NCBI GenBank assembly: GCA_030272585.1
Contig: BSYQ01000004.1
Coordinates: forward strand, 7,068,001-7,132,000
Reading direction: 5' to 3'
DNA: 64,000 bases
Source of the DNA: Bryopsis sp. KO-2023
Lineage: Eukaryota > Chlorophyta > Ulvophyceae > Bryopsidales > Bryopsidaceae
The position numbers and the translations under genes are program-made. A model generated the notes under the pieces. The model did not search any database. It was not told where the DNA came from and saw nothing but the letters and a program-made list of their open reading frames with translations. Of this stretch, positions 30,005 through 56,912 are shown in pieces (within the stretch, counting starts at the first letter, position 1; every line of letters begins with the position of its first letter).

Positions 30005-30016
30005 TGGTTTCGGAGC
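30005..30016 (+). promoter_or_regulatory. Primer-binding site, family A
   Basis: TGGTTTCGGAGC, identical to the family B site at 40101-40112. Expected to pair with a tRNA ending GCTCCGAAACCA; I cannot name the tRNA. Confidence 0.6.
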
Positions 30017-30160
30017 GTTGCGAGCTTCGGACATGTTAGGAATATGGGCCCACTAACATTGCAACAAAGTTCTGTGCAACACTGTTTACTCTGGTGATCA
30101 CCTCTCGTAAAAGAGAAAGCGCTCCAGAAATTAACACAAGTGTAAAACATTGTAGGAACA

Positions 30161-32080: not shown

Positions 32081-32106
32081 GGTCAGAGGTCAGGCCTGGT
32101 GATCTC
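32068..32106 (+). promoter_or_regulatory. Probable -1 ribosomal frameshift signal, family A
   Basis: In the Gag frame the end reads CAG GAT TTT CAT TAG. G GAT TTT (32068-32074) has the same form as known G GAU UUA-type slip sites. A -1 slip enters the RT frame, which is already open. Eleven bases on, GAGGTCA (32086-32092) can pair with TGATCTC (32100-32106), giving a 7-bp stem with one G-T pair. Inferred, not proven. Confidence 0.5.
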
Positions 32107-33687: not shown

Positions 33688-33992
33688 TAGGGTCTAGGAA
33701 TAAGAGAAAGACTAGTCTAGGGGAGGACTAGTGGATGGCAAGGTTTAGTGAAATTTCTGGGACAGAGTCGATCAGGAGGCACAAGACGGGGATTAGAAAA
33801 GATAGAGGTTAAATCCAAGCAACCTCCTGTAGAGGAAAGAACCTCTGGGAGGAAACAAGTCCTGCTTAGGATTCTTAAGGGAGAAGCAGGCAGGGAAGAA
33901 GTAGATCGAGCTAAGTTTCTCAGGGACAGAACCAAGCTTAGTGAAAGAGATTCCGGAAGTTCGAAGTTTGAAAGGAAAAACACGGGAAAAGA
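33688..33992 (+). other. Spacer between RT-RH and ORF3
   Basis: About 300 purine-rich bases. A partly overlapping open frame (33748-34116) has a Lys/Arg/Glu-rich translation but no motif; it looks incidental. The sequence just before the next ATG is gggaaaagaATGG. Confidence 0.4.
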
Positions 33993-34502
33993 ATGGATGC
34001 AACACAAGCCGCCGCCCTTGCGCACATCATCGCTGTTCTGCTGGAGCTACTGGTGGACATGGAGGAATATGAGGAGGAACTTCGGCAACGGCTGCTCTTG
34101 GGAGAGTTCCGAATGAACACCAGGGCGGGCCGAGAAGCCCGAATGAACGTCGCTAAACTCGCTCAGTACACGGAGACATTGATAACTGTGCGAGGACTAC
34201 TAGACGAGTTTCGAGCGGGAGCTCCAGTTGGTCCGGGTCCTCTTAGGCCCACTAGGCAGCAGATAACGGCGATGTTGGCCCAGCCTATCGGAAACGCTGG
34301 AGGACAGGGAGGTGGAGGGGGTCCATCTAATAACCCTGCTGGTTTGCCGCGCTTTTACCCAGTGGCACGGGTGGAGGCAAGGTTCGAGGAGAACGGTGAT
34401 GGCGATATGCAGGAGGTGCCTCCGGAGGAGCCGATAGTGGTGTACTCCTCAGGGGAAGAGGAGAACACTAGAGATGTGGGGGCACCAGGCCCCAGTAGTT
34501 AA
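33993..34502 (+). CDS. ORF3 of family A: 169-aa helical/Gly-rich protein
   Basis: Residues 1-75 are helical with a leucine-rich start (IIAVLLELLVDMEEYEEEL), the middle is Gly/Pro-rich, and the end acidic (VVYSSGEEENTRD). No known domain. The frame is open and the protein is identical in the right copy, on a different strand 25 kb away, but the copies are too young for this to prove selection. Located between RT-RNase H and integrase, where no ORF is expected. The start sits in aaaagaATGG like the other accessory ORFs. Confidence 0.6.
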   Translation: MDATQAAALAHIIAVLLELLVDMEEYEEELRQRLLLGEFRMNTRAGREARMNVAKLAQYTETLITVRGLLDEFRAGAPVGPGPLRPTRQQITAMLAQPIGNAGGQGGGGGPSNNPAGLPRFYPVARVEARFEENGDGDMQEVPPEEPIVVYSSGEEENTRDVGAPGPSS

Positions 34503-35290
34503 GGGATGTTTTTAGTGGCAGTTTAAATATGTGGATGTTAGCCTGGTATGCAGGAGGGAAAGTTGAAGTCATGTCGGGGTTGAGAAGTGGTTCTGTAAGC
34601 AGGATTCTGCCTTTTTCTTAAAGTGATATAAGTTATCTCAGAAATAGTTAAGACTCCTGGAACAAATGAGTTCCACCTCTTAACAGAACACCAGTCTGAG
34701 TTTCTTTCAATCCACACTGAAAAACAGAAAACCACTCTGCTCACAGCCGGTCAATCTCTAAGATAATTAAAGGAAGGTCTGAGGATTAGAAGTAATCCCA
34801 GACAAACGTTCAGATTCTGCAGAGATCAGGTATCCTGAAAGAGGGGACTCTCAGAATGGAGGACTACAGTCTCGGGTAAGACTGTACACACTTTGATTTA
34901 TTATAAATCAATCCCTGTGAGGACCTCATACACTAAGTCGAAAATGGTGTGGTGTTTGATCCAACCTAGAAGTTAAGGTCACTTAAGAGGAAAAGTGCTC
35001 TTTCCCATAAACAGGACTGATAGTTCAAACTCTGGGATTAAACAACTGCATGTTAACTGGACTAAGAGATGACCTCTAAAGCTTACAGCTTTCAGTCAGC
35101 CCACAAGCCAACTGTCACAGCTGTTTCCACCTGGAGGATTTTGTATTTAAGTGGAAACCCTTATTAACTAGAGGAGAGGGCAAACTTTGCTTTATCTACC
35201 CAGGATAAGCAACTTAAAGCAAAAGGATACCGGAGCTAAGAGGCTCTAAGTACAGACGTAAGGCATTTAAGTCGAGAAGGAAGTATACAG
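34503..35290 (+). other. 790-base non-coding gap before integrase
   Basis: No long frame on either strand. Has several short self-complementary stretches (ttgatttattataaatcaa at about 34893). It might hold a splice acceptor or internal promoter for integrase expression, but I cannot point to one with confidence. Confidence 0.45.
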
Positions 35291-36712
35291 ATGCGGAAGT
35301 ATGACATCTGGAGGGACCCTTGCACCCTAAGTCTTTTGCAGAAAGACTTTGAGAAGTTTGCTGGATATTCCAGCCAAGAGAAGGCAGCAGCTAGGAAAAA
35401 GGAGGCTAGGTACATATGGGATTCGGAAACAGAACGAATGTTTCTGCAGGACGCGGGAGGAGATAAAAGGAGGGAAGTGCCAGTGGAGGCTAGGAGACAG
35501 GAGCTAATTATGGAGGCACACATAGCAGTGGGACATGTGTCGGTGAAAGGAACTTTGGAGAAGCTCAGGGAGCACTACTTTTGGTATGGGATGGAAAAAC
35601 AAACCAAAGAAACTTTGGGGAAGTGTGAAACCTGCCAGGAGATCAGGCCAAAGTTTCTGATACAGCCTAGACTGCTCCAGACCCCAGCTGGCCTTCCGTT
35701 TTATCAGTGGGGGATGGATACATTTTCCATTAGGATGCCTGACACACAGGCTCTAGTGCATATTTTAGTAGTGGTGGACTATTTTACAAAATGGGCTGAG
35801 ACTGGAATAGTGGATGCAAAGAGTCCAATTTTTATAGCTCAGTTTCTATTCCAGAACATCATCTGTAGGTTTGGGGTTCCTAGATTCTTCCTATGTGATA
35901 ATGGGACAGAGTTTAAGGGTTTAGTGTTAGATTTATGCAAGCAAGAGGGGATAGAGATTAAGAACACTAGTCCGAACCATCCCAGAACGAATGGGCTGGC
36001 GGAGAGATTAAATCAGACCCTGAAACAGGGAATAGTGGGTAGGCTAAAAGAAAAGCAGGCAGAAGAGACACCCACCACAGGTGCACTCTTATTTTCAGTA
36101 AAGGATTTACAGGGGGCTTTATTAGACAGTCTTAGAGACTATAATAGCAGGGTAAAAGAAACGACAGGGTACAGCCCTTTTGAATTAGTATATATTAGGA
36201 GGCAGGTGAACAAAAGAGACTGGGCAGCCTATCAGTTAGGACAACAACTAGAGGAGTCTCAGACAGATTTAGGAGAAGGATCCCAACCTCAGGGAGGAGG
36301 CTCTGGATCCCAGACTTTAGCTGAGAAAAGGAAAGAGGCAATTTTATTAGATCCTGTGGTCCAGGAACTGCCAGTTTTGATCTCAGATAGGGAGTTAGCA
36401 GAGCTGAGTGAATTAAGAAAAAGGATGGAAGAAAGAGCTAAGGAATCAATAGGAACAGCTCAGTATAGGCAGCAGAGGAACTATGGTGAAAAACTGAAAG
36501 AAAAAGAAAGGATAGAAGCTCTTAAGATAGGAGATTCGGTTTTAGTTAGAATTAAGACTTCTAAGAAGCTAGTGATTAAAGCTCAGGCAGGATTTCGAAT
36601 AGAGGAAATAGATAGAACAGGAGTTAGAGTCAAGGTCTCTAGGGGTACTCGACAGAGCCGGTGGGTAGCTCTAGAGGATGTCGCTGTACCCGGAGGAGAG
36701 CCTAGTACTTAG
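35291..36712 (+). CDS. pol (IN): Integrase, family A, as a separate ORF
   Basis: 473 aa. N-terminal zinc site: AHIAVGH (His pair) and CETCQEI (Cys pair). Catalytic core: first Asp in QWGMDTFS, second in FFLCDNGTEF, Glu in PRTNGLAERLNQTL, with DDE spacing. After the core comes a ~120-residue Lys/Glu/Arg-rich stretch and an SH3-like end (IGDSVLVRIK, ending VAVPGGE). No chromodomain is visible, unlike family B. Begins with its own ATG; there is no overlap with RT, so it must be made from a spliced, internal or otherwise separate start. Confidence 0.9.
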   Translation: MRKYDIWRDPCTLSLLQKDFEKFAGYSSQEKAAARKKEARYIWDSETERMFLQDAGGDKRREVPVEARRQELIMEAHIAVGHVSVKGTLEKLREHYFWYGMEKQTKETLGKCETCQEIRPKFLIQPRLLQTPAGLPFYQWGMDTFSIRMPDTQALVHILVVVDYFTKWAETGIVDAKSPIFIAQFLFQNIICRFGVPRFFLCDNGTEFKGLVLDLCKQEGIEIKNTSPNHPRTNGLAERLNQTLKQGIVGRLKEKQAEETPTTGALLFSVKDLQGALLDSLRDYNSRVKETTGYSPFELVYIRRQVNKRDWAAYQLGQQLEESQTDLGEGSQPQGGGSGSQTLAEKRKEAILLDPVVQELPVLISDRELAELSELRKRMEERAKESIGTAQYRQQRNYGEKLKEKERIEALKIGDSVLVRIKTSKKLVIKAQAGFRIEEIDRTGVRVKVSRGTRQSRWVALEDVAVPGGEPST

Positions 36713-36884
36713 GAGAGTACTTTAGGAGAAGTTTACGGAGAACCTTGGACCGAACTACTAGCGATATGCCCAAGGATAGGGAGTAGCAGCAAGGGATACA
36801 GGCTTAAAGGGGTGTCTTCGGGAGGTCATGGTTTAAGTTCTAAAAAAATATATTTCGGTAACGACAAAGACTTCGAAGAAAAGA

Positions 36885-37346
36885 ATGGCAGGAACGATGT
36901 CCACCCAGCAGCTGAACGAGTGCGTGGCAGCCGAAGTGCTGCACCTTCGGACGGAGTTAGAAAAGCAAAAGGGGGAGGTCACTAGGCGGCTCAAGCGGGC
37001 TTTTACGAACGAAACCGCAGCTGGGAGGACTGCGAGGGATTTACTCAGGCGACAGAAAATCGCCTTACTGAGTAATTTAGAGAGTTTGGGAAGGATAGAG
37101 GACTTTCAAAGTCGCCTGCGGAAAACTCAAGGGGAAGAGGAAATTCCGGAGAAGCGGCTGCAGGAGGTGGTTCGCGAGAGGTCTAGGACTTCTGGGTGGC
37201 GACGACAAGATTCCAATCAAAAACGACGACTGGAAGTCGTGGGTGACCTGCACGAGCAGGAGGTTAAGCGAGCGAGAGGGGAGGAGAGCGAGAGCGATGG
37301 GTTTGAAGTCACCGATAGTGAGAGCGAAGGAGAGAAGGGAGGTTGA
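36885..37346 (+). CDS. ORF5 of family A: 153-aa basic coiled-coil protein
   Basis: Predicted coiled coil over about residues 5-115 (heptads such as LHLRTELEKQKGEV and Arg/Lys-rich helices), then a KRAR basic patch and an acidic Ser/Glu tail (ESESDGFEVTDSESEGE). Starts in gaagaaaagaATGG. No database family recognised. Identical in the right copy. Confidence 0.6.
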   Translation: MAGTMSTQQLNECVAAEVLHLRTELEKQKGEVTRRLKRAFTNETAAGRTARDLLRRQKIALLSNLESLGRIEDFQSRLRKTQGEEEIPEKRLQEVVRERSRTSGWRRQDSNQKRRLEVVGDLHEQEVKRARGEESESDGFEVTDSESEGEKGG

Positions 37347-37567
37347 GACATCGGCAGGAGAGCTCTGGAGGATGTAGAACTTTGATTGAGTGAGGGAGAA
37401 TATTGGGAGACCCAACGCATAGATATGGAGTCAGCTTGAGAGGACATAGAGAAGTGTTTTAAACCCCAAGCCTCGAGGCATCGAATTCTTTCGACGGAGA
37501 AAAAGAAAACCAACGGAGCGGGAGGTTTTGCCTTTTTGTTTAAAAAAAAAAAAAAAGAGAAAAGAGA

Positions 37568-38887
37568 ATGGTTGAGTGGCGTCAAAGGGTGGAGGAAGCG
37601 ATCGAGAGGATCGAGGCAGGGGCGGTGCAGTCAAGAGAGGGGGCAAAAGCGCTGGAGGATTTATTTAGGGGAGAAGAGTCGTTGGCGGAGGAATATACTC
37701 GAAACCAGTTGAAATGGCAGGAGGAGCGACAAAAGCTCATCCAGGAAAACTCCGCCCTTCGACAGGCTGCAAGTGAGGGAGATGCGGGCTCTTCGAGTTC
37801 TGCTGCTCAGGTGATACTCCTGCAGCATGAACGAGATCAGCTGCTCTTACGAGTGGTTGAACTGGAGGAGTCGCTCCAGGCGGCTCAAGCCAGCATTGCG
37901 ACGGAGGACTTGGAAACTGTGAGGTTGCGACAGGAAGTCGTGGATCTGAAGGAGCAGCTGAAGCAGACGGATGCAGGAAAACAGAAGTTGGAGGATCGGA
38001 GAACCGCGGAGGGATTCAGTATCGATGAAAGCGATGACGATCACAACAGCGACGGGGATGGAGAAGAGCATGGAGGAAACAGAGGAGATGGGGATGACAT
38101 CGATCATGGTGGAGACAGAGAAGGAGGAGGATCTGGCAGAGTGGGAAACAGTGGAGGTGTTGCTGGAGAGGAAAGGAACGAAGGAGTGGAGGACCAGGAC
38201 AGGATTGATCCCACGGGAGGACGAGAGGGAGGTAGTCAAGGTGGCAGCGGAATCAGAGAGAGGGTGGATCGCACTGATGGAGATGGAGGAACAGGTGCAA
38301 GGATCGAACAAGCACGGATCAAAGAGGAGGAGGACAATCCCGGCGGGGACTGGGTCGATGGGAACTGCTTTTTCTGCAGATCCCGAAATGCAGTGAAACC
38401 CATCGGCGGAGCATGTTCTCGGCACCAAGCCTGTCACAAGGTTGGTTGTCGGGATCGTGCCTGGTTGGCGGGGAGCTTGGAGCTGGACATGGATGAAGGG
38501 GGCATGGGGACCTTTCGCAGGATATACGCTCCCGAGGCATCGATCGCACCGCCGGCAAACTTCTCCGATCAGACATGTTCTCTATGTCGATTGATCGGAG
38601 GAGCAAACCATTTCCGCTCCATCTACCCGGCGACCTCTCGACCCCGTTTGGAACTCAATCGTGCCATGCATCGAGCTCGGAGTAATGTGCGAGCGGAGCA
38701 GCTCCCGGGAGCGTGGGTTGGTAATGAGCAGCAGAGCCATCCAGTGGAGACCCTACTGGATGAGAGATTGATCGAAATCCATGGGGCTACCAATCCTCCA
38801 CTCTCCCGAAAGAGGACCGCTCGAAAAGGAGCAACATCAGCAGCTGCAGCATCCAGCAAACGACAAAGGGGACCCAGTGGCAGCTAG
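37568..38887 (+). CDS. ORF6 of family A: coiled coil, acidic linker, RING-like zinc domain
   Basis: 439 aa. Residues about 1-145 coiled coil; 150-245 Asp/Glu/Gly-rich; residues about 267-343 contain C-x2-C-x12-C-x2-H-x2-C-x4-C-x42-C-x2-C (CFFC, CSRHQAC, CSLC). That order and spacing are close to a C3HC4 RING, except x4 instead of x2 before the sixth ligand. The tail is basic (RKRTARKG, SKRQRG). It occupies the position where env sits in retroviruses but has no signal peptide or membrane segment. Family B carries an ORF of the same layout in the same place. Function unknown; a RING would suggest a ubiquitin ligase, which is inference. Confidence 0.68.
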   Translation: MVEWRQRVEEAIERIEAGAVQSREGAKALEDLFRGEESLAEEYTRNQLKWQEERQKLIQENSALRQAASEGDAGSSSSAAQVILLQHERDQLLLRVVELEESLQAAQASIATEDLETVRLRQEVVDLKEQLKQTDAGKQKLEDRRTAEGFSIDESDDDHNSDGDGEEHGGNRGDGDDIDHGGDREGGGSGRVGNSGGVAGEERNEGVEDQDRIDPTGGREGGSQGGSGIRERVDRTDGDGGTGARIEQARIKEEEDNPGGDWVDGNCFFCRSRNAVKPIGGACSRHQACHKVGCRDRAWLAGSLELDMDEGGMGTFRRIYAPEASIAPPANFSDQTCSLCRLIGGANHFRSIYPATSRPRLELNRAMHRARSNVRAEQLPGAWVGNEQQSHPVETLLDERLIEIHGATNPPLSRKRTARKGATSAAAASSKRQRGPSGS

Positions 38888-39438
38888 AGAGAGGGTAAAT
38901 CTCTGGGAGAGTAGAAATTAAAAAAAAAAAAAAAATATAAAAAAAAAAAAAAAATATTAGAAGAGGGGGATTCCCTTTATGAAAGGGTGTTATATTGGGT
39001 TATCAAAGGGGTGTGGATTTTTGCCAAAATTTTATAAGGTTTTCTTTTTCATATCATTTTCTTGACTTGAGAACATAAGAGTGGATTTTTCTGGTAAAAA
39101 AAAAAAAAAAGGGGGACAGACAAATCCTGTGGATTTTTCTGGTAGACAAAAAGGGAGAGACAAATCCTGTGGATTTTTCTGGTAGACAATAAGGGAGAGA
39201 CATATTTTGTGGATTTTCTGGTAGAATAAGGGAGGACTTAGCAGTGTTGAATACACTTAATAGGGGGTTTGATGTGGGTGTTGAATACACTCAAGGGAGT
39301 TTTGATGTGGGTGCAAGAGATGAAATGAACAGTATGGTTGAAAGGAAGAAAGACTGCATGAGATGCAGTGGGTTTTTGATTAGGTTTTGGGTACGCATAG
39401 AGTGATTTCTATGCGGGTGTAAGGGGGAGCGTCACAGC
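38888..39438 (+). repeat. A-rich tract and tandem purine-tract repeats before the 3' LTR
   Basis: Two A runs (38920-38955) are followed at 39081-39235 by four tandem units beginning gtggatttttctggta (spacing 48, 40, 40) each holding a purine tract such as aaaaagggagagac. Then two copies of a 35-base unit (ttgaatacact... gatgtgggtg, 39246-39312). The last purine tract, gtaagggggagcg (39420-39431), lies next to the LTR and is the best polypurine-tract candidate. Confidence 0.65.
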
Positions 39439-39673
39439 TGTGACGGAGCTAGAAAGAACATGGCAGATGTACTGCCACCAGATGTAATGATTATTCCGAT
39501 GATAATTCGGAAGAATGGAATTACCAACTCACACTGATAAACAGTCGTATTTTACGCTGCTCTATGTGAGACCTGGTGGTTCGTACGTCGGGTTCAATTC
39601 CTGACGAGGTCGATGACGTAGGAAAAGTTGTATATTGATACGCTGGAAGATATTGAATAGCTGGCACGCCAAC
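39439..39673 (+). repeat. Family A 3' LTR, first part (split by family B)
   Basis: Matches 28626-28860 almost base for base and stops at CCAAC, where family B begins. Resumes at 49781. Confidence 0.9.
39669..39673. repeat. 5-bp target duplication of family B, left copy
   Basis: CCAAC here and at 49776-49780. Removing family B plus one copy restores the LTR sequence found intact at 28856-28868 and on the minus strand near 53950. Confidence 0.95.
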
Positions 39674-40098
39674 TGTTAGTCTTTTAGCGCTATACGAGGT
39701 AGTTTGGGATAGAGCCGAGGGTGGCTGACGCATGTGGGTTCACGAGTAAGACAGATTAGACCCAGAGTTTGGGGCATGCGTCAGCGTACTACACTTAGGG
39801 GTACTTAAGAGGCCCACTCGTTGTTTTGACATTCTTATTCACTTTACTTTGTAAGAACTCGGGATTCGTGGGATTGGTGTGTTCCCGCTTGTGTGTGTGT
39901 TTGTGTGTGTGTGTCTAAGTGTTTGCCTGACGCAATCACTTATCCAACCAAGTGCTCTAGTAGCGTTCACAACCGCGCTAGCTAGAGAGTTGTCTAAACC
40001 AACAAACCCCACAAGTATACTTGCGTTAGCCAGCAAGTTATCACGAATCCAACCAACACAGCCGACCACTATTGCGTCACCCACAAGCTTCACTATCA
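39674..40098 (+). repeat. Family B 5' LTR
   Basis: 425 bases, starts TGTTAGTC and ends ACTATCA. Contains an inverted pair gctgacgcatg / gcatgcgtcagc (39726 and 39777) in the presumed U3, and a (TG)-rich tract at about 39889-39912. Confidence 0.97.
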
Positions 40099-40100
40099 AT

Positions 40101-40112
40101 TGGTTTCGGAGC
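40101..40112 (+). promoter_or_regulatory. Primer-binding site, family B
   Basis: TGGTTTCGGAGC, two bases after the LTR end. Same 12 bases as family A. Confidence 0.7.
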
Positions 40113-40243
40113 AGGGCAAGAACTTTAAGTTCTTGAGATCGAAACTTGTGAACGTGGCGCAACAAACGTTTTTGTTTGTTTGTTTGGTAGAGAGAAACTC
40201 CAACCGTGGTTGTTGAGTACTCCCAAATAGTGGCTGAGAGATC

Positions 40244-42895
40244 ATGGCTGACCGTGAACACGCATTGGCAGTGCGCGAGCCTCAAGTTGAAGAGCCAGGG
40301 ATTGAACCTGAGTTCGATGAGGAATTGCCTGACGCACCCAATGTTGTGTATCAACAAATAAACGTCCAGAACATCCACAATGTCCAGCAAGCAGCTGTCG
40401 ACATAGACATGGGAGCTGATGCGGAAGCCTTAAGAGAGGATGTGGATGCGGTCCATGACCGTGTGGACGATTTAGCCCACGGGCTAAGGGGTCACCTGCA
40501 GCAAGTTGACCAGACACTGGGGCAGAGGCTAGCCCATGCTGAGGCCTCTGTGTCGAATCAACTGGCTGGCGCATCAGAGGTGATCGGGCAGGCGCTGGAA
40601 ACACAGCACCAGCATGCGCAACAGGTTGAGGCCACACAGCATGCGGTGGTGTCGCAACAGCAGAAGCTGGATTCAGTAGCGGCTCAACATAGTCGATACG
40701 AGCAGAGGCTATTACGCCAAGATATCGACCATAGAAAAGAAAGAGCCGAGATCAAAGCTTCTGTGGACGCAATAACGAGGAGAATGGATGCCGCAGACAT
40801 TCTAGCGGACTCTCGTTTTGCTGACCTAAAAGAAGCAACTGAAGCATCAGCACTTCAGTTAAAACAACTCTCCGAGTTATCCCTTGTTCAAGGGCGGAGA
40901 ATTGAAGGCTTATTAGGAACTGTTGCGGATTCCAACGAAAAAGTCGAACGGACTCTAGAATTGTTTCGGGAGTCCCTGCATAAGCAAGGTGCTGAGGTGA
41001 AGCGTTTGCAGAGCTCAAGAGTAGCAATTCAAAAAGATTTGATTGCCTTGGAGAAAAAGGCATCCAAGACCTGGGATCAGCAGCAAGATGCAGCTGATGT
41101 GGTTGCCTTAAGATTATCTGGCCTGGAACGAAGCATGGAGGATGTGAGTGGCGGAAGTCAGAGTGCCCAAAGTGGAAGTGATGCTCGAGCAGTATCACCA
41201 GAGCGTGAAGAATCAACTTCTCCTGAGCCTGAGGACTCAGCCTTTGGAATGCCGCTGCCGAAGAAATCAGTAAAGCAGTTGGCTGCATCATGGCCGCCAC
41301 TAGACCAGAGCTTCGCGGTAGGAATGGTTGGGGCAGGAACCTCAACAATACCGGCTCCTCCAGCAGTACAGGTCGAGGAGGGTGAAATTGTTGCTGCAGA
41401 AGCACCACCATGCACTGCAGTGGACAGCGCACCAGACGCTGATTTCACATTCCCTCAATTGATACCTCCAAGTACAAGAGCTCAGCCTGGAGTACGCATC
41501 TCAGAACCCGACTCTGCCGAAGGATCACGTAGACCCACACGAACTAACCCAAGAGTTCTCTCCTCAGCAGAAGTGTTATATCAAATTGACCTTGAGCGTG
41601 CTAAGGCACAGGTCAGAGAAGAGAAAGGAAAAGAACCCATGCAGATCCCCACACGTACCGGAAGATTGGGACTTGGGTTAAGTGCTTTGGGAGCAAGGGT
41701 AGAAAATAATCCCTTTGCCGCACTTGGTTCATATGAGTCTACTGGTGGACCCAGTCGAGTTCCTCGCATGCGAGGTAACTTTGGAGACCCTGGTGATGAC
41801 GACCCAGATGATGATGGCGGTGATGATTACCGCGACAGACGAAACCGCCCACCTTCCCGCATTCCAGGTGCGCCTGATGGCGGAGGAGGTGGTGGCGGCG
41901 GTGGAGATGGTGGAGGCGGTGGACCTCCCGGTGGACCTCCTGGTGGAGGTGGAGGTGGAGGTGGCGCTGGACCAGCAGGCCCAGGACCTCCTAGGCAAGG
42001 ACAGTGGTTGCCTAGCACCGTCAAGTTGCAAATGCCTCGCGCATTTAACGGAAGTGGAGAACCAAAAGCCCGTAAATGGCAAGTGCTCATGACGCGGTAC
42101 TTGAGAACCTGCGGAGTGCATGAAGCACAGTGGCAATCGATTATGGCCACTAACCTTTATGGGGCTGCCTCGGATTGGTTAACGATGCAAGAGTTGAAAA
42201 TTCACCGAGGTGAAAGACCACCCTTCCGTGACTGGATGGACTTCATGGATGGCTTAGCTACAGCTTTCGAATTCTCTAGTGATCGAGATGAAGCGTGGCG
42301 TGACCTCCATAAACTCAAGCAGACTGGAACCGTGAAACAGTTCGTCAAAGAGTTTCAGCGGTTAGTCTTGAGGATTCCAGACCTCGAAGAGGATCACCAG
42401 TATTTGCTCTTCGTGGATGGACTTAAGAGTGAAGTTCAGAAGTTAGTCGCTGCAACGGTACCTCGAGATGTCGAGGCTGCCATCATATCCGCCGAACGAT
42501 TGGAAGCCCTTGGAGTTGGAACACAAGGCCAAGGAGGGCAAACCAATCAGAAAAAGAAAGGAGTCTGGCGTGGTGGAAGAAAGAAGAAAGGCCAGAATCA
42601 GGGTCAGCAGCAGCAGAACCCTACACCACCAGCCCAAGCACCACCACAAGCTGCCGCAGGAGTGCAACAGCAGCAGCAACAGCAACAAGGACGAGGAGGA
42701 GGACGTGGTGGTGGTGGACGTGGACGCGGTGGTGGTAACCGTGGAAGAGGACAAGCCAATCAGGGAAGACAGAACCCCCAGGGGGGAGGGGGATATAATT
42801 GTTATCTTTGTGGAAAGAAGGGTCACCCTGTGAGGCAATGTCCTAGATTGGAGGAGGTGAAAAACCTCCCCGATGTAAAAAAAATGTTAAACTGA
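40244..42895 (+). CDS. gag: Gag, family B
   Basis: 883 aa, long for a Gag. Residues 1-290: acidic start then an extended coiled coil. 300-540: disordered, Pro/Ser/Glu-rich. About 545-585: Gly/Pro-rich run from a repeated ggtgga tract. About 590-765: retrotransposon Gag (capsid) domain with WQVLMTRYLRTCG, ASDWLTMQEL and LRIPDLEEDHQYLLFVDGL. Then Gln/Gly/Arg-rich nucleocapsid-like sequence, and a zinc knuckle CYLCGKKGHPVRQC near the end. Start ATG has context atcATGG about 130 bases after the PBS. Ends at TGA 42893, just after a -1 slip site. Confidence 0.9.
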   Translation: MADREHALAVREPQVEEPGIEPEFDEELPDAPNVVYQQINVQNIHNVQQAAVDIDMGADAEALREDVDAVHDRVDDLAHGLRGHLQQVDQTLGQRLAHAEASVSNQLAGASEVIGQALETQHQHAQQVEATQHAVVSQQQKLDSVAAQHSRYEQRLLRQDIDHRKERAEIKASVDAITRRMDAADILADSRFADLKEATEASALQLKQLSELSLVQGRRIEGLLGTVADSNEKVERTLELFRESLHKQGAEVKRLQSSRVAIQKDLIALEKKASKTWDQQQDAADVVALRLSGLERSMEDVSGGSQSAQSGSDARAVSPEREESTSPEPEDSAFGMPLPKKSVKQLAASWPPLDQSFAVGMVGAGTSTIPAPPAVQVEEGEIVAAEAPPCTAVDSAPDADFTFPQLIPPSTRAQPGVRISEPDSAEGSRRPTRTNPRVLSSAEVLYQIDLERAKAQVREEKGKEPMQIPTRTGRLGLGLSALGARVENNPFAALGSYESTGGPSRVPRMRGNFGDPGDDDPDDDGGDDYRDRRNRPPSRIPGAPDGGGGGGGGGDGGGGGPPGGPPGGGGGGGGAGPAGPGPPRQGQWLPSTVKLQMPRAFNGSGEPKARKWQVLMTRYLRTCGVHEAQWQSIMATNLYGAASDWLTMQELKIHRGERPPFRDWMDFMDGLATAFEFSSDRDEAWRDLHKLKQTGTVKQFVKEFQRLVLRIPDLEEDHQYLLFVDGLKSEVQKLVAATVPRDVEAAIISAERLEALGVGTQGQGGQTNQKKKGVWRGGRKKKGQNQGQQQQNPTPPAQAPPQAAAGVQQQQQQQQGRGGGRGGGGRGRGGGNRGRGQANQGRQNPQGGGGYNCYLCGKKGHPVRQCPRLEEVKNLPDVKKMLN

Positions 42896-42930
42896 CCGCC
42901 AGGCAGGAAACTGCTTCGTCTGAGCCTGGC
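42877..42930 (+). promoter_or_regulatory. -1 ribosomal frameshift signal between Gag and Pol, family B
   Basis: In the Gag frame GTA AAA AAA ATG TTA AAC TGA contains the heptamer A AAA AAA (42877-42883). Slipping back one base there leads directly into the Pol frame, which is open. Fourteen bases downstream GCCAGGC (42898-42904) pairs perfectly with GCCTGGC (42924-42930), with a nested CAG-GAAA-CTG hairpin. This is the standard layout of slip site, spacer and stem. Confidence 0.8.
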
Positions 42931-45900
42931 CGACGTAAACGTCGTAAGCGAAACAGAGTTCGTAGGCGGCGTAGGAAGCTAAGATCAAAAGTAGGTGCCT
43001 CGAAAAAGGTTTGTACTCACAGCGGAAAACCTGGGGCGCGGACTAGTACACCGCGTGAAGAGAGAACAGAGACACTCTCCACATCTACCCAATCGGCACA
43101 TGACAACTGCGATTGGAAAAATGAACAGAAGGAAAGCACACCGGATGAGATGGACGCGCCTCATGCGTCATCTGCATCTCTTCCCTCTGTTAGTGAATCT
43201 GTGGGCTCATTGGAGTCGCAGAGTAGTCTACAGGAGTCCCTGCCTGCAGACGTAGATGATAGTGGGTCAGAAACAACCCAGCGGTCTACCACAGAGCGAG
43301 TTAATGTGTCAGAAGTTCGATCAACTTCGTCAACCAAGGGTGACACATGCCCTCTGTTAAAAATTCAAGAAGTGCCTGTGAGAGGGTACGAAGTAAAAGC
43401 ACGGATCAAGACCACGGACCTTTATGCATTCATTGATTGTGGAAGTACAGCAAACTATATCAATGATAAGGTAGCGCGTGATCTCGGGTTGTCGATTACA
43501 CCAAGCTCTAAGAGAGCAATGTTGGCAAACGGAGATATTAAAGAACTGGCTGGCAGCTGTAACAACCTCCGAGTAAAGATAGGAGGGCTGAAGTGCAAAA
43601 TGAAAGCGGATCTGTTCCCAGACCTTGGTTATGACCTAATATTGGGCATGCCTTGGTTGCAGAAAGAAAACCCCCGCATAGACTTTCAGCAAAATGAGAT
43701 TTCAGTTTGCAAAAACAGCCAAGTGTTTCATCTTCCGTTGCGTCATCCAACCCAAGAGAGTATTGAACCTGAACGAAAAGTACAGTCGATACTGCAAGAA
43801 GTGCCAGTGACTGAGTGTTCAGCTAAACGAATGATGCGTCATCTCAAAACAGAGACAGCATTCATGGTTGTAGTGCAAGAGTCTGAAGAGAAAGCTTTAG
43901 GCCAACATGAATTGCCTGACGCAATAGAGCGAACACAGCCATTCAACACTGAGGATGAGATTGGCAAACTTATTCGTTCAGACACCCCTGCCGAAATTAA
44001 AAAGGTGGTAGAAACACACCGTGGTGTGTTTCCTCGTGATTTACCCCCAGGGATCCCTCCGAAGAGAAAAGGTCATGAGTTTAAGATAGACCTGGAGGAT
44101 CCAACACCTATCCATCGTCCAATATACAAGCTTTCACCAGCAGAGCTGGATGAAGTGAAAGCACAAGTGGACTACCTTCTGGAACAGAAGAAAATCAAAC
44201 CATCCGAGTCCCCTTGGGGCGCGCCAATCCTATTTGTACCGAAAAAGGATGGAGGCTTAAGGATGTGTGTGGATTACAGGTGGATCAATAAGGTGACGGT
44301 GAAAAACCGGTATCCTTTACCCCTGCCAGAAGAATTGATGGATAGAGTGTTCAAAGCCAAAGTGTTCTCAAAGTTAGATCTGCGATCAGGCTACTGGCAA
44401 TTTCCAGTAAGGCCATCTGATACAGATAAAACAGCGTTCCGCACGAGATACGGTCACTTTGAGTTTTTGGTAGCGCCTTTTGGGCTAACCAATTGCCCAG
44501 CGCAATTCCAAACTCTAGTGCAAGACCTACTCGCAGAGTTTTTAGATGATTTTGTTGTTGTCTTTATCGATGACATACTCATCTTCTCTGAAAACATGGA
44601 ACAGCATGCCGAACACTTAGAGAAAGTCCTGTCGCGACTAGCAGAATATCAGCTTTTTGCTAAGGCAAGTAAAAGTGAGCTGGCTGTCGCAACAGTAGAC
44701 TATCTTGGCTACCGCATTAGCGGAAGTGGGTTAAAGCCACAGGAACAAAAAGTGAAGGCAGTGAAGGAGTGGAAGGAACTACAGAGTGTTAGCGATGTAC
44801 GTAGTTTCCTTGGAATGGTTTCATACTACAGGAAATTCATTCCCCAGTTTGCACATATTGCTGGACCACTCCATGACTTAGTGAAAAAAGACCATCCCTG
44901 GAGATGGGGACAGGTTGAGCGTGGCGCATTCAATGAATTGAAAAAGCGTCTAAGTCAAGCTCCCGTCCTTATTTTTCCAGATGCGTCACTGCCTTACACT
45001 GTGATCACTGATGCGTCGAATGAGGCCATCGGTGCCGTGTTAACACAGGATCACGGAGAGGGGCTACAGCCAATAGCTTACCTCTCACGTAGATTCAAGC
45101 CTGCCGAGCTTAACTATGCACCATACGACAAAGAGTTGTGTGCAATATGTTATGCGATGGTGCAGTGGAGACATTATCTAGAAGGTTGTGCGGGTGGAGT
45201 AACAGTGTTCACTGACCACCAACCTCTGACGCATATTCTGTCGCAGAGGAACCTTTCTAGAACCCAAGCAAGATGGCTTGAGGCGGGGTACCTGACTTCG
45301 ATCAACCCCAAGATCTCCTATATCAAAGGCAAGGCTAATGTGTTAGCAGATGCTCTCTCCCGCAGTGTTCCTAAGCCCGTGGAAACTGCGATGAACATTT
45401 CCACTTGGCAAGTGCATCAAGCAAGCCAAGACGAGTGGAAACAAGCCCTCCAAGCTGATAACTCCTTGGTGAAGATATTGCGGAAGCTTGAGAGTGGCGA
45501 GGAAGTTGAGGGATATTTCCTCAGAGAGGGAATACTCTGGACGGTCCCAAAGAGAGGATTAGTCGAGAAAGTGGTGGTTCCTAAAGGCCAGCGCAATAAG
45601 ATCATGAAGGAGTGCCATGAGACACCTTCAGCAGGCCATACAGGACCAGCGCGAACAGGAGAAATCCTAGCGCGGCGATATTGGTGGAAGGGGTGGATGA
45701 ATGAGTTGAAGGCATTTGTTCGCGAATGCCCTGTGTGCCAACAAATAAAGGCTGACACACAGAAGCCTATGGGCTTACTTCAACCCCTGCCAATACCTGA
45801 GCGGAAGTGGGAGCAGATTACCACTGACTTGGTGACAGATCTACCAGCATCCAATGGGTTTAGTGCTGTAGCTGTCTTTGTCGATAGACTTACCAAGTTT

Positions 45901-46890
45901 GTGCATTTCGCCCCATGTACTAAAGAGATTACCGCTGCAGGATACGCCCAACTTTTTATCGAACATGTTTACCGCAACCATGGCCTACCTAAAGTGATTG
46001 TGTCTGATAGAGACCCTCGCTTTACCAGCAAGTTCTGGCAGACGCTTTTTAAAGCTCTGGGTACAGAGATTCGTATGAGTACAGCTTACCACCCTCAGAC
46101 GGATGGGCAGAGTGAGGTTACCATACGTACTCTGGAAAATTTTCTAAGGCCATATGCTGAGAGGTATCCCCATAAGTGGGTTGAGTATTTACCTACAGCA
46201 GAGTTTGCAGCAAACAATGCAGTGAATGCGAGTACAGGGTTCGCACCTGCATACTTGATGTATGGGTACCATCCAGAAACACCAAACATTGGTGGGACGG
46301 CAACGCAATTTCAAGTGGAAGCAGTTAAGACTATGGTAGCACGGATGGCACAGGACTTAGATACCGCAAAAGCATATTACTCTAGAGCACAACACAGAAT
46401 GTGTGTGAGTGCAAACAAGAAGAGGAAAGATATTGCTTTTGAGAAAGGGGATAAAGTCCTGATAAAAAGCCGTTTTATTCCGTTGGCTGCTTTGAACAAA
46501 GTGAGTCCCAAACTGCGCCGTCGATTTGTGGGTCCCTTTGAAATTGTGGAGAAAATATCAAAGGTGGCTTACAGAGTTCAACTTCCGGAAACATGGCTCA
46601 TTCACCCAGTGTTTCATGTTTCTAAGTTCAAGCGTTATCACGCCTCGAGTGATAACAGCAGGCAGATACAACCTCCAGAAGGAGAGTTGATTGGTAGCGA
46701 AGTAGAGTATGAGGTCGAAAATATCCTAAGGGCTAGAGGTAAACGCAATCGTGAATACCTAGTGCTGTGGAAAGGATACGATCTACTTGACGCTACTTGG
46801 GAACCTGAAGCTAATCTGGTTAACGCACCAGATATACTTCGCGCATTTAAAGAGAAAGAAAGAAAAGAGTTGCAGAAAGGAAGAGAATAG
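42883..46890 (+). CDS. pol: Pol, family B: protease, RT, RNase H, integrase, chromodomain
   Basis: About 1336 codons from the slip site; first ATG in frame at 43150 (1246 aa). The segment before 43150 is very basic. Residues below count from 43150. Protease: FIDCGSTANYI (Asp 96; DCGS instead of the usual DTG/DSG). RT: WGAPILFVPKKDGGLRMCVD, FSKLDLRSGYW, catalytic VFIDDILIFS (FIDD, 472-475). RNase H: ITDAS (621), DKELCAI, FTDHQPL. Integrase: zinc residues in CHETPSAGHTG and CPVCQQIK; catalytic Asp in ITTDLVTDLP (893), SDRDPRF, Glu in HPQTDGQSE. C-terminal chromodomain about 1186-1240: EYEVENILRARG, YLVLWKGYD, ATWEPEANL. All catalytic residues are kept except the unusual protease and FIDD variants, both seen in other chromoviruses or easily tolerated. 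Confidence 0.96.
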   Translation, partial: NVKLTARQETASSEPGRRKRRKRNRVRRRRRKLRSKVGASKKVCTHSGKPGARTSTPREERTETLSTSTQSAHDNCDWKNEQKESTPDEMDAPHASSASLPSVSESVGSLESQSSLQESLPADVDDSGSETTQRSTTERVNVSEVRSTSSTKGDTCPLLKIQEVPVRGYEVKARIKTTDLYAFIDCGSTANYINDKVARDLGLSITPSSKRAMLANGDIKELAGSCNNLRVKIGGLKCKMKADLFPDLGYDLILGMPWLQKENPRIDFQQNEISVCKNSQVFHLPLRHPTQESIEPERKVQSILQEVPVTECSAKRMMRHLKTETAFMVVVQESEEKALGQHELPDAIERTQPFNTEDEIGKLIRSDTPAEIKKVVETHRGVFPRDLPPGIPPKRKGHEFKIDLEDPTPIHRPIYKLSPAELDEVKAQVDYLLEQKKIKPSESPWGAPILFVPKKDGGLRMCVDYRWINKVTVKNRYPLPLPEELMDRVFKAKVFSKLDLRSGYWQFPVRPSDTDKTAFRTRYGHFEFLVAPFGLTNCPAQFQTLVQDLLAEFLDDFVVVFIDDILIFSENMEQHAEHLEKVLSRLAEYQLFAKASKSELAVATVDYLGYRISGSGLKPQEQKVKAVKEWKELQSVSDVRSFLGMVSYYRKFIPQFAHIAGPLHDLVKKDHPWRWGQVERGAFNELKKRLSQAPVLIFPDASLPYTVITDASNEAIGAVLTQDHGEGLQPIAYLSRRFKPAELNYAPYDKELCAICYAMVQWRHYLEGCAGGVTVFTDHQPLTHILSQRNLSRTQARWLEAGYLTSINPKISYIKGKANVLADALSRSVPKPVETAMNISTWQVHQASQDEWKQALQADNSLVKILRKLESGEEVEGYFLREGILWTVPKRGLVEKVVVPKGQRNKIMKECHETPSAGHTGPARTGEILARRYWWKGWMNELKAFVRECPVCQQIKADTQKPMGLLQPLPIPERKWEQITTDLVTDLPASNGFSAVAVFVDRLTKFVHFAPCTKEITAAGYAQLFIEHVYRNHGLPKVIVSDRDPRFTSKFWQTLFKALGTEIRMSTAYHPQTDGQSEVTIRTLENFLRPYAERYPHKWVEYLPTAEFAANNAVNASTGFAPAYLMYGYHPETPNIGGTATQFQVEAVKTMVARMAQDLDTAKAYYSRAQHRMCVSANKKRKDIAFEKGDKVLIKSRFIPLAALNKVSPKLRRRFVGPFEIVEKISKVAYRVQLPETWLIHPVFHVSKFKRYHASSDNSRQIQPPEGELIGSEVEYEVENILRARGKRNREYLVLWKGYDLLDATWEPEANLVNAPDILRAFKEKERKELQKGRE

Positions 46891-47340
46891 GGAAACAGAG
46901 TGTTTGATGGCTAAGGTGGAACTCCTTATTGCAAGGGGGCGCGAAAAAGGATACCTTAGAAAAACTCTGTCGACTTCCAAACCAACTCTTTAACTTTAAT
47001 GCGTTAGGTGCCTAAGTTATTTGGCTGGCGCAGTAAGTGTAGCTTCAGTAGTACTTTAGAAACCGGGCAAACGATGTCACATTCGAGATAGTGTGGTTGT
47101 TCCGAGAAAACCCCTATCAAGTGACGTGTTGAGGTGGTCTTGACGAGACTCCAACCGAGCGAAACGTTGGTGTCTCACCCCAATAACTCAACGAGGAAAG
47201 TGTACGAGTCACCCAGCCTTATAAGCGCAGCCCTCGAACCATTTTGCCCTAGTGTTTGTGTAAACGGAGCGAGCTCCTGAGTGAAAAAGAGTCTAAAGAC
47301 GCACAAACCGTTGTTTATATCTTTCTTTCCGACAAACATA
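46891..47340 (+). other. Spacer between Pol and the extra ORF, family B
   Basis: 450 bases without a coding frame. It could contain a splice acceptor or promoter for the downstream ORF; aaccccta/ccttataagcgcag near 47216-47230 has a TATA-like cttataag. Not demonstrable here. Confidence 0.4.
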
Positions 47341-49155
47341 ATGGCTGCCGACACACCCGCCGCAATTATTGCGAGGTTGGAAGCGGAGGTAGCTCAAAAA
47401 GAAGAGGAGCTGCAGCACTTTGTTACGACCGCAGAGGAGGTGCTGCAGAACAATGAGGCCTTAACCCGGCAGCTCGCAGAGTTGAGTGACCGGACGAAAG
47501 CAGCTGAGGCTGCGAAGGAGGCAGCGGAAAAAGCCAAGGATAAGGCGGAGGCGGAAAAGAAAGAAGCGGAGGACAAGACTAAGGTCTTGGAAGAAAAATT
47601 GGAAGCCATGAAGCTGAAAAAGCAAAGGTTCCAATCTCACATGATGGCTAACCATCGTGAGAATGACCTCCGTAAACAAGCTCTCGGGGGAATAGTGGAT
47701 CGATTTACCGCGGTAGAGGAAACGCTGCAGCGAGCTGTAGCAACCGCGTGGAGTGCAGCAGCCAACAACCTTAAGAAGGAATTGGCAGAACAAGAGCTGC
47801 AGATCGATTTGCTGGGAGAGTCCCTCAGAGACGGCTCTGAAAAACTTCAAGTGCAGAGCGAAACAACGGACAAGATGCTGCGTTTGAACCCGGCGGTACC
47901 AGCACCACGGGTACGTGAAGAACTGGATCGCCAAGTCCAAGTTCTGTTGTCAAACGCAACACTTGATCTGGAACCGTCCAAGGACGATGATGCGGGAGGC
48001 TCAAGCAAGGGCAAGGGGAAAGGGAAAAACAAACGCCCAAGCTCGCCGTGTAGGGATGAAGATCCACACGGAAAGAGAAGGCGAGAGGACGGTGACGATG
48101 AAGGTGGTGAGCCACCGAGGGATCGTATGCCTGGAGATGCAGCAAGAGCCAACTTGTTACTCAAGTTAAAGGCTGCCGCATTAAAGACTCCAGCACCCTC
48201 ACAACCAGCACCAACAGTTCAGACACCCGGGGATGAGGCTACCGCAATAGCACCGGGGGAGGACCTCTTCGACATGAGAGAGGAGGAGCTTTTGGACTTG
48301 GATTTTAACGAAGAAATTGACTTCGGCAGTCCACCTCCTAGGCTCGAAGGTCCTAGTTCTGAACTGGAGGACGGGGAAATAAGGAATGATGAAGGGCCAA
48401 GCCAGGTGACAGAGGTTCAGCGTGCGGTCCATCCACCGTTGGAGTTAGCTCCAACAGAAGCAGCACTTCGGGCTTTCCGAGAAAAGGTTAAGCTCAGAAG
48501 ACTAAAGGCAGCTGCTCAGGACAAAGTGGATGCTGCACCCAGCGAAGTGAACCTGTCACGGGAGGATATCGAGGAGGCTTGCAACCCCATCACTGCGTCA
48601 GAGAAATGGCCGAAGGTCCAATATACTAACCCCAGGGACCGAGCCTTGCAAAATTACCGCGGCAACCGGCACTTTCACGAGTTGCCCATGTGCATTTGGT
48701 GCGGGAGAAGCCCAATGCAAGCAAGTGCTCAGCGGCTGACGCAGAAAAAGTATTCCGTCCTTCCTTGTGGGTATCACCTCGTGTGTGATGCTCATTGGTT
48801 GGCATACTCGATGCTGGGGCGCATCGTCACGGCGGTCCAAAAAGTCGCGGAAGTGGACAACAAGTCCATCGCCACCGTCTCCCCATTCTCTCTACCTGCC
48901 CATATGTTGAAGCTGACACGCTCGACGTTCGAAGAAATCCCTCCGTTCCCGGCTGAGCACGAGAAGTTGCCACACTGCAACATGTGTGTAAAGCGGCAGC
49001 TCAAGGTGTCCGGCATCACAAGGGATCTGCCATTCCTTAAGTCCAAGAGGGTGGCTGCCGCGTTTGATCCCTGTGTCCGGTATCGTGCAGTACAGCAAGC
49101 GCATGCGCAGGAGCAGCGTGCTATTCAGCAAGCGCAAGCGCAGGAACAGCGTTAA
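47341..49155 (+). CDS. Extra ORF of family B: coiled coil plus RING-like zinc domain
   Basis: 604 aa from ATG 47341 (ataATGG). Residues about 5-190 are a long Ala/Glu/Lys coiled coil (KAAEAAKEAAEKAKDKAEAE). 215-270 is a Lys/Gly and Asp/Glu mixed linker with KRRRED; 290-400 is acidic and Pro-rich. Residues about 451-550 hold C-x2-C-x21-C-x2-H-x2-C-x2-H-x60-C-x2-C (CIWC, CGYHLVCDAH, CNMC), a RING-like ligand order with His as the sixth ligand. The end is two copies of an 11-residue QQAHAQEQRAI-type repeat. No signal peptide or membrane segment, so not an env. Layout matches ORF6 of family A though sequence is different. Confidence 0.7.
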   Translation: MAADTPAAIIARLEAEVAQKEEELQHFVTTAEEVLQNNEALTRQLAELSDRTKAAEAAKEAAEKAKDKAEAEKKEAEDKTKVLEEKLEAMKLKKQRFQSHMMANHRENDLRKQALGGIVDRFTAVEETLQRAVATAWSAAANNLKKELAEQELQIDLLGESLRDGSEKLQVQSETTDKMLRLNPAVPAPRVREELDRQVQVLLSNATLDLEPSKDDDAGGSSKGKGKGKNKRPSSPCRDEDPHGKRRREDGDDEGGEPPRDRMPGDAARANLLLKLKAAALKTPAPSQPAPTVQTPGDEATAIAPGEDLFDMREEELLDLDFNEEIDFGSPPPRLEGPSSELEDGEIRNDEGPSQVTEVQRAVHPPLELAPTEAALRAFREKVKLRRLKAAAQDKVDAAPSEVNLSREDIEEACNPITASEKWPKVQYTNPRDRALQNYRGNRHFHELPMCIWCGRSPMQASAQRLTQKKYSVLPCGYHLVCDAHWLAYSMLGRIVTAVQKVAEVDNKSIATVSPFSLPAHMLKLTRSTFEEIPPFPAEHEKLPHCNMCVKRQLKVSGITRDLPFLKSKRVAAAFDPCVRYRAVQQAHAQEQRAIQQAQAQEQR

Positions 49156-49350
49156 GGAGGAGGGAAAAGGAGTTATCGTCGACCAAGTGTGTGCGTGCAG
49201 CAGCTGTCAGAGACGTCAGAGCAAGAGACAGGTCCAAGACAGTTGGGTGTGGGTATGGGAGTGGGTGAGTTTTGTGTTTGTGTTTTTGTGTTTTTGTTTT
49301 TCTTTGTGTTTTGGTGTGCGTGGGCGCCCACTTTTTGCGGGGGGGGCGTA
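49156..49350 (+). promoter_or_regulatory. 3' untranslated segment and polypurine tract, family B
   Basis: T/G-rich stretch (tgtttttgtg units) followed by gcggggggggcgta abutting the LTR; the G run is the likely polypurine tract, with a 3-4 base gap. Confidence 0.55.
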
Positions 49351-49775
49351 TGTTAGTCTTTTAGCGCTATACGAGGTAGTTTGGGATAGAGCCGAGGGTG
49401 GCTGACGCATGTGGGTTCACGAGTAAGACAGATTAGACCCAGAGTTTGGGGCATGCGTCAGCGTACTACACTTAGGGGTACTTAAGAGGCCCACTCGTTG
49501 TTTTGACATTCTTATTCACTTTACTTTGTAAGAACTCGGGATTCGTGGGATTGGTGTGTTCCCGCTTGTGTGTGTGTTTGTGTGTGTGTGTCTAAGTGTT
49601 TGCCTGACGCAATCACTTATCCAACCAAGTGCTCTAGTAGCGTTCACAACCGCGCTAGCTAGAGAGTTGTCTAAACCAACAAACCCCACAAGTATACTTG
49701 CGTTAGCCAGCAAGTTATCACGAATCCAACCAACACAGCCGACCACTATTGCGTCACCCACAAGCTTCACTATCA
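49351..49775 (+). repeat. Family B 3' LTR
   Basis: 425 bases, no difference seen against 39674-40098. Confidence 0.97.
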
Positions 49776-49780
49776 CCAAC
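49776..49780. repeat. 5-bp target duplication of family B, right copy
   Basis: CCAAC, as at 39669-39673. Confidence 0.95.
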
Positions 49781-50519
49781 CCATGGCTAGCGCAGAGTAC
49801 TAGGAGTCTTACTGCCGGCACTGTCGTTTTATGACATCCGAGGTATGACTTCTACGAAACGTGCGGCTGGGAACACAAGGAGCCAGCGAAAACACTATGG
49901 ATTCCAGCGAAACGGATACAACTCCCTACGAAAAACGATCCCTTAGGCGATACGCACGACTGGCAGTCGGGTCGCTAGTCGACCCCTGTCGTGACGCCGA
50001 ACTCGCGGCCAGCACACATGCGCTAGCGCTAGAACCGGCCGCGAGTATAAATATCCCACAGAATTCTGGTTAAAGACAGACAGAACTCGGTGAATACCTC
50101 GTTTACTTCTTACTTCGGACATCTATCTATAGGAGGACTCTCTTATCGTGACGGACTTAAGGAAAGCTTCGCGACTTACCTTAAACGGGAATCCCGACCG
50201 GACGAGGTACTTCTGGCCAAAGATAGCATCATCCAAGGTTTTCTGAAGTACACTTCTGAAATGGGATACACCATCCCTTCTCTTTCTGTAAAAATATTCT
50301 CTTGCTATTATTCTTGTGTCTCTGAAGTGTCTTTATTCAAAATAAGATTGTTTCTGATCAAACTTTGATTCTAGAGGAAATAGGAGTGGAGTCAGGATAG
50401 TAAGAGAAGGTGCTGCCCTTCTCTTAGGAGGTTTTTCTCCACTCAGAGGAGCCGACCTCTCCTCTGAGTGTCTCCTTTCGTTTTTGGTGTTTGCTTTTTG
50501 TGTTTCTCTCTTTCTCCAG
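49781..50519 (+). repeat. Family A 3' LTR, second part, truncated
   Basis: Matches 28861-29599. Ends abruptly after tttctccag; the next recognisable base pair series (from 50523) is family A pol in the opposite orientation. Confidence 0.9.
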
Positions 50520-50522
50520 TTC
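50520..50522. other. Inversion junction
   Basis: Three bases (ttc) not explained by either side join plus-strand LTR sequence to minus-strand RT sequence. No long homology at the join, so it looks like end joining. Confidence 0.7.
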
Positions 50523-52654: not shown

Positions 52655-52798
52655 TGTTCCTACAATGTTTTACACTTGTGTTAATTTCTGGAGCGCTTTC
52701 TCTTTTACGAGAGGTGATCACCAGAGTAAACAGTGTTGCACAGAACTTTGTTGCAATGTTAGTGGGCCCATATTCCTAACATGTCCGAAGCTCGCAAC

Positions 52799-56740: not shown

Positions 56741-56912
56741 TCTTTTCTTCGAAGTCTTTGTCGTTACCGAAATATATTTTTTTAGAACTTAAACCATGAC
56801 CTCCCGAAGACACCCCTTTAAGCCTGTATCCCTTGCTGCTACTCCCTATCCTTGGGCATATCGCTAGTAGTTCGGTCCAAGGTTCTCCGTAAACTTCTCC
56901 TAAAGTACTCTC

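Follow-up and report, generated by a model that had tools for sequence, protein, structure and literature searches.

Accessory proteins encoded by transposable elements have been described in several systems. The VANC proteins of Arabidopsis VANDAL transposons evolve between related elements and often target tandem repeats (PMC5735166); an orchid Ty3/gypsy lineage contains an extra open reading frame (ORF) for an AlkB m6A demethylase that is thought to face host surveillance (PMC9289625); TET/JBP genes recur as an accessory gene across heterogeneous fungal DNA transposons (PMC12730594); and plant long terminal repeat (LTR) retrotransposons contain a conserved sense ORF, aORF-3S, between pol and the 3' LTR (PMC7264820). 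Here, we analyzed a 64,000-nucleotide stretch, hereafter the window, from assembly GCA_030272585.1 of Bryopsis sp. KO-2023 (BSYQ01000004.1:7,068,001-7,132,000), in which two different Ty3/gypsy families, A and B, each carry an ORF for a protein with a Cys/His cluster. An earlier reading of the letters alone, hereafter the sequence-only reading, had placed these two ORFs after pol and before the 3' LTR, and the coordinates confirmed this (37568-38887, ORF6 of family A; 47341-49155, family B); it had also placed the host among the charophytes, which is probably wrong, as the host is probably an ulvophyte (Bryopsis).

The ORFs of this locus share features with each of the described systems and differ from all of them. 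In the part of that source considered here, the aORF-3S sense ORFs are env-like, and none is described with a coiled coil and a Cys/His cluster or in common with Helitrons (PMC7264820). Tandem repeats also adjoin ORF6 in family A, which recalls the targets of VANC; VANC, however, belongs to Arabidopsis VANDAL elements (PMC5735166), and a mechanism would be shared by analogy only. The AlkB ORF encodes an enzyme with known plant homologues and is confined to a single lineage (PMC9289625), and TET/JBP genes encode a known enzyme in DNA transposons (PMC12730594). Finally, Cys clusters of the CxC type (Pfam PF18721 and PF18718) likewise accompany KDZ elements, and one of them is encoded at 19023-20960 of the window, but no CxC match was obtained among the accessory ORFs studied here, 13 of 14 of which were scanned against Pfam.

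Results

Cluster types and the elements that hold them

We compared 14 accessory proteins (A, B, C, D, D2, D3, D4, E, F, G, H, I1 and I2 among them), which were chosen by the order of their ligands or by homology, from a genome of 91.09 Mb in 28 contigs. The A-type cluster (A, C, H, I1 and I2) reads C-x2-C-x12-20-C-x2-H-x2-C-x4-C-x-D-x2-W, followed, 38-42 residues after ligand 6, by C-x2-C. The D-type cluster (D, D2, D3, D4, F, G and E) reads C-x2-C-x14-16-C-x2-3-H-x2-C-x2-H, then 47-53 residues and C-P-x-C, with a Lys two residues on and then W-x-G. The cluster of B is a third type, with the ligands of the D-type but without CPxC.

Judged by sequence, homology within the A-type and within the D-type is firm. 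A search with A ORF6 matched C at E 3.6e-15 and I1 at 1.2e-7, one with I1 matched A at 8.3e-8, H at 8.4e-6 and C at 8.1e-4, and one with D matched E at 2.2e-16. The corresponding hhalign comparisons gave 97.1% for A/C against H, 95.8% for A/C against I, and 99.3-99.9% among the D-type subgroups. The A-type against the D-type gave 0.3% (3.0% at most for subgroups), which indicates that common cysteines alone give no score. The sequence-only reading had grouped A and B, by their domain order, in one possible class of accessory protein; homology between the two was not borne out (BLASTP E 2.0; hhalign 1.5% for the A-type against B). We also considered and rejected a common origin of B and the D-type: hhalign gave 19.5% with all seven D-type proteins, 49.1% with D3, D4 and F, 21.1% with E and G, and 1.6% with D and D2, and this is the level of noise, since B against H scored 44.2% on a segment whose ligands do not correspond.

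The elements that hold these clusters belong to different kinds of transposable element. The accessory ORFs of C, D, D2, D3, D4, F and G are all located downstream of a Ty3/gypsy pol with a chromodomain, which scored above the Pfam cut-off in 7/7 of these and in B. For the reverse transcriptase (RT), the identity of A to all others is 36-38%; C reaches 48-51% with B and with the D group, and B reaches 57-59% with the D group. The D-type cluster was found in six chromovirus groups and, as E, beside a KDZ-like transposase. The KDZ-like ORF, E and H occurred together at 6/6 places, and a seventh copy of H was without the KDZ-like ORF. This ORF matched KDZ at E 2.7e-4 and a chromodomain at E 4.3e-4, both below the Pfam thresholds; a Pfam KDZ scan of the genome gave only two places, both sub-threshold, and the KDZ-like copies were located by protein search. 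Furthermore, I1 and I2 flank a 1,386-residue Helitron replicase-helicase in the same order in 5/5 copies, one of which is broken. The replicase, which matched Helitron_like_N at 1.6e-42, PIF1 at 1.6e-51 and the Helraiser chain 7lcc at E 2.6e-136, can be firmly identified from these matches. The A-type cluster thus adjoins genes of Ty3/gypsy, Helitron and KDZ-like kind, and in one KDZ-like unit an A-type and a D-type protein occur together.

The sequence-only reading had suggested an undescribed class of retroelement accessory protein. A literature search, with subscription papers and preprints outside its scope, found no such protein or cassette, the ORF is under selection, and more than two families carry it; the restriction to retroelements fell, because the proteins are also encoded next to the Helitron replicase and the KDZ-like ORF.

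Apparent exchange of the ORF between D and D2

The pol region compared between D and D2 is 95% identical with a synonymous divergence (dS) of 0.35, whereas their accessory ORFs are 49% identical with saturated dS (proportion of synonymous differences, pS, 0.77). The DNA match between the two (1,732 columns at 90.9%) extends past the stop codon of pol and breaks off in the spacer, 86 bases upstream of the start of the ORF; the only further match, of 140 bases at 76%, covers a portion of the cluster. Identity in windows across the ORF was 0.38-0.57, except for one window of 0.74 in the first part of the cluster. Because identity changes sharply between pol and the ORF, the pair is best read as an apparent exchange of the ORF as a unit, with a 5' edge in the spacer. 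D and D2 differ so little in pol that they could be named as one family. In the 14 other D-group pairs, the ORFs are 30-38% identical and pol 70-87%, so that the ORF diverges faster than pol in this group, whereas between A and C the cluster region is 36% identical and the integrases 21%.

Copy number, selection and loss

A genome search with ORF6 gave 167 candidates, of which 96 were scored. These comprised 27 near-full-length copies (72-100% identity, 26/27 stop-free), 5 fragments, 59 matches to the cluster region only, 4 to the helical part only, and the Helitron protein I1. The 59 cluster-only matches are 34-41% identical and cover mostly residues 265-388 (a few are shorter or longer); among the four that were inspected, L009 and L016 have an adjoining pol and belong to family C, and L011 and L015 are broken. 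For the B ORF, 262 candidates yielded 71 scored copies, 70 of them stop-free. When only its cluster region was used, 150 of 275 candidates were scored, all 98-100% identical, which marks a very recent burst.

We compared ORF6 with seven other copies, out of 26 listed, and obtained ratios of nonsynonymous to synonymous substitution (dN/dS) of 0.20-0.29 for the whole ORF and 0.16-0.33 for the cluster region. Against the most distant copy (L013, 72% identical), at dS 0.8-1.0, the ratio was 0.218 over all of ORF6 and 0.165 over its cluster region, compared with 0.077 for the integrase. By these comparisons of sequence, ORF6 is under purifying selection.

At 33 full-length family A RT places, an ORF6 match was located 3.5-5 kb downstream in 21 and 12-67 kb away in 4, which are possible nested insertions. 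ORF6 was thus within 80 kb of 25/33 RT places, and none was listed for 8/33 among the 96 scored matches. In family B, the pol end was found just upstream of the ORF at 8/8 loci inspected (of 71 listed). ORF6 is therefore not missing from most intact copies of family A. Four of the eight ORF6-less RT places were inspected. Three of them (L030, L031 and L033) have the integrase and ORF5 and lack ORF6, and at the fourth (L032), nothing in the 4.5 kb inspected matched family A. In L031, the loss of ORF6 is a junction of the A-tracts that border it (37542-37556 and 38920-38957 in the window); an intron as the cause was considered and dropped, since the join falls between these tracts. In L030 and L033, unalignable sequence occupies the place of ORF6. 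Such ORF6-less copies would fit a product supplied in trans.

The 40-bp repeat of the type at 39113-39313 has more matches, which overlap, in L031 than in the window. These repeats could be a binding array, or nothing.

Layout of the proteins and relatives elsewhere

The Cys/His spacings of both A ORF6 and the B ORF were recovered by pattern scan exactly as the sequence-only reading had written them, and none of 100 shuffles of the six-frame translation of the window contained a relaxed form of either pattern. The proposed layout of helix, linker and cluster was upheld; the coiled coil was not well supported in A and B themselves, where the heptad signal is weak. The heptad score of the N-terminus, which is mostly helical, was matched by 12/100 shuffles for A, 12/100 for D2 and 17/100 for B, and by 5/100 or fewer in 11/14 proteins. 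The linker is net acidic in 11/14 proteins (exceptions H, I1 and I2) and the tail net basic in 10/14 (exceptions D4, H, I1 and I2). TRIM proteins have a RING, a B-box and a coiled coil, in that order. The accessory proteins likewise combine a RING-like cluster with a coiled coil, but in the reverse order, as had been proposed, with the helix first and the cluster last and with no B-box or other Pfam domain. The absence of membrane features from the two ORFs also held (highest 19-residue hydropathy 0.72 for A and 1.01 for B), and, judged by hydropathy only, a membrane-like stretch was found in none of the 14 proteins (highest 19-residue value 1.42).

A search of 5.8 billion proteins at E 0.01, in which only proteins sharing exact words were scored, gave no relative of A (98 candidates) or B (171). 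A D-type alignment, with 8,000 candidates scored, gave one relative, P0001, 93% identical to D and encoded on a 1,153-base contig labelled Parasphingorhabdus. We rejected it as a true bacterial relative and take it as probable algal contamination; two Parasphingorhabdus genomes derive from cultures of Bryopsis sp. KO-2023 (PMC12509668). Pattern scans of viral contigs gave no relatives of A, B or D3, genome contigs gave no relative of D, and Pfam gave no known domain relative among the 13 proteins scanned.

Organization of the window

The features of the nested elements are listed in Table 1.

Table 1. Coordinates of the family A and family B elements and their features in the window.
Feature	Positions	Strand	Remarks
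Family A Ty3/gypsy element	28626..50522	+	LTRs ~0.98 kb; 3' LTR (39439-39673 and 49776-50522) interrupted by family B
A gag and aspartic protease ORF	30161..32080	+	Pfam
A RT/RNase H ORF	32113..33687	+	Pfam
A integrase ORF	35291..36712	+	Pfam; no chromodomain match
A ORF5, 153 residues	36885..37346	+	Retained in three copies without ORF6
A ORF6, accessory protein, 439 residues, ATG start	37568..38887	+	Helix at the N-terminus, then an acidic linker, the A-type cluster and a basic tail
A-type cluster of ORF6, C-x2-C-x12-C-x2-H-x2-C-x4-C-x42-C-x2-C	38366..38587	+	Pattern scan, alignment
Tandem repeats, 40 bp x2.8 and 33 bp x2.1	39113..39313	+	Between ORF6 and 3' LTR of A
Family B Ty3/gypsy chromovirus inside A 3' LTR	39674..49775	+	425-bp LTRs fully identical; 5-bp target duplication CCAAC
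B gag ORF	40244..42895	+	Pfam
B pol ORF, chromodomain included	43150..46890	+	Pfam
B accessory ORF from first ATG, 604 residues	47341..49155	+	Start given earlier was an in-frame GTG at 47281
B cluster, C-x2-C-x21-C-x2-H-x2-C-x2-H-x60-C-x2-C	48691..48987	+	Pattern scan
ORF6 of second family A copy	54738..56057	-	Genome search with ORF6, pattern scan

Two small ORFs of family A (33993-34502 and 36885-37346) have no Pfam match near the cut-off, and their positions are retained in the L013 copy. Positions 50523-64000 form a head-to-tail array that terminates at 50522/50523, in which a minus-strand family A copy shares its 3' LTR with another, truncated copy (50523-54189), where it serves as the 5' LTR. 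The region 10787-28192 is probably a KDZ transposon, and its inverted arms are long. Its ORF at 19023-20960 matches CxC6 above the Pfam cut-off and CxC5 and KDZ below it, its ORF at 14387-14995 has a chromodomain, and about ten copies of a repeat of ~207-223 bp are found at 23142-25464.

Discussion

We put the probability at about one half that the accessory ORFs form a pool of trans-acting, host-facing cassettes in unrelated transposable elements of one alga. Use of the domain beside unrelated transposition machinery points to a target on the host side. A host-facing role is further suggested, from sequence comparisons, by the fast divergence of the ORFs and by the persistence of ORF6-less copies, and relief of silencing or defence is the leading reading by analogy with VANC (PMC5735166). 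In such a mechanism, the cluster would bind zinc, the protein would self-associate via its helix, and the basic tail would lead to nuclear entry. The cluster would then bind, or mark, some host factor that all these elements encounter, and host silencing or defence would be relieved; this might be done through a ubiquitin or SUMO ligase step of RING type. Because the product would act in trans, copies that lost ORF6 could persist.

Several observations weigh against this proposal. Fast divergence of the ORF is perhaps mere tolerance, and dN/dS of the acidic linker ranged from 0.18 to 1.06 over the seven comparisons, reaching 1.06 once. The A-type, the D-type and B are unlinked by sequence, so that the one pool may equal two or three independent inventions with a similar layout. 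For D and D2, only the 5' edge of the putative exchange is resolved, and DNA identity falls to 0.83-0.87 near the pol end, so that the history differs there too. The KDZ match of the KDZ-like ORF (21.2 bits against a cut-off of 26.6) and its chromodomain match (20.6 against 25.1) are both below cut-off. As the copies of the KDZ-like element and of the Helitron are nearly identical, E, H, I1 and I2 might conceivably be carried along within some larger duplication. Families C to I were recovered by searching with these proteins, which gives no figure for prevalence among all elements. Finally, in a Ty3 family that was instead chosen by its RT, the copy that was followed (L036, L039) has no such cluster past the integrase, and the flank of a second copy (L038) has no cluster and no integrase either. 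In that family the RT is ~39% identical to that of A, and the integrase frame continues into a long cluster-free extension.

A serious rival, which we hold to be possible though doubtful, is that the proteins are cofactors of replication, i.e., nucleic-acid-binding or chaperone proteins (comparable to an additional nucleocapsid or to a factor for nuclear import) for the copying of the element itself. The low dN/dS of ORF6 fits such a role equally well, and the Cys/His cluster, present with a basic tail in most of the proteins, the position after pol and the high copy number of the holding families are all compatible with it. However, homologous modules accompany the Helitron replicase and the KDZ-like transposase, neither of which has replication machinery in common with Ty3, the ORF appears to have been exchanged between elements with nearly unchanged pol (D and D2), and it is absent from some copies of family A.

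The sequence-only reading had proposed a ubiquitin ligase that acts against host defence. Such a RING-type E3 ligase, in which the cluster would be a variant of the cross-brace RING, recruit an E2 of the host and tag a defence protein for degradation, seems rather unlikely to us. The spacing of RING domains is C-x2-C-x9-39-C-x1-3-H-x2-3-C-x2-C-x4-48-C-x2-C. The ligand order C,C,C,H,C,[CH],C,C was present in 14/14 proteins, a set that was picked by that order or by homology. The D-type appears the closest of the types to RING spacing, as its C-x2-3-H-x2-C-x2-H and the invariant Pro of its C-P-x-C are RING features, and D3 gave a very weak match to Prok-RING_4 (E 0.9), the only RING-named Pfam match among the 13 proteins scanned. 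Against a ligase, 0/14 proteins have the strict C3HC4 spacing and 1/14 (D4) has it when His is allowed at ligand 6, the A-type has C-x4-C at ligands 5-6, the CPxC proline is absent from both the A-type and B, and the Protein Data Bank, searched with the A-type and D-type profiles, returned no sequence even at an E cut-off of 10.

It is very improbable that the ORFs are captured fragments of a host gene, carried as functionless passengers. Transduced genes are known in LTR elements (PMC7264820), and A-tracts do border ORF6, but a passenger would need a dN/dS near 1, not the 0.20-0.29 obtained over ORF6; furthermore, the frames are open in nearly all listed copies and in several families rather than single copies, and the domain did not turn up in any host gene, although no dedicated search was made and intron-split genes are hard to detect. 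An env-like or movement protein, which the position between pol and the 3' LTR might suggest, can be virtually dismissed, given that a membrane-like stretch was found in 0/14 proteins and that homologues are encoded next to genes for Helitron and KDZ-like transposition.

Altogether, a module that is held by unrelated transposition machineries, and apparently swapped in one pair, argues for action on the host side rather than in the chemistry of transposition. More tentatively, retrotransposons, Helitrons and KDZ-like transposons might share a pool of RING-like, trans-acting counter-defence genes that are exchanged as cassettes, as are the anti-defence genes of phages. If the host-facing reading is true, these proteins would provide a handle on which step of host silencing is attacked in this alga, and would justify a test of whether transposons maintain a shared stock of genes against host defence in the way that phages do.

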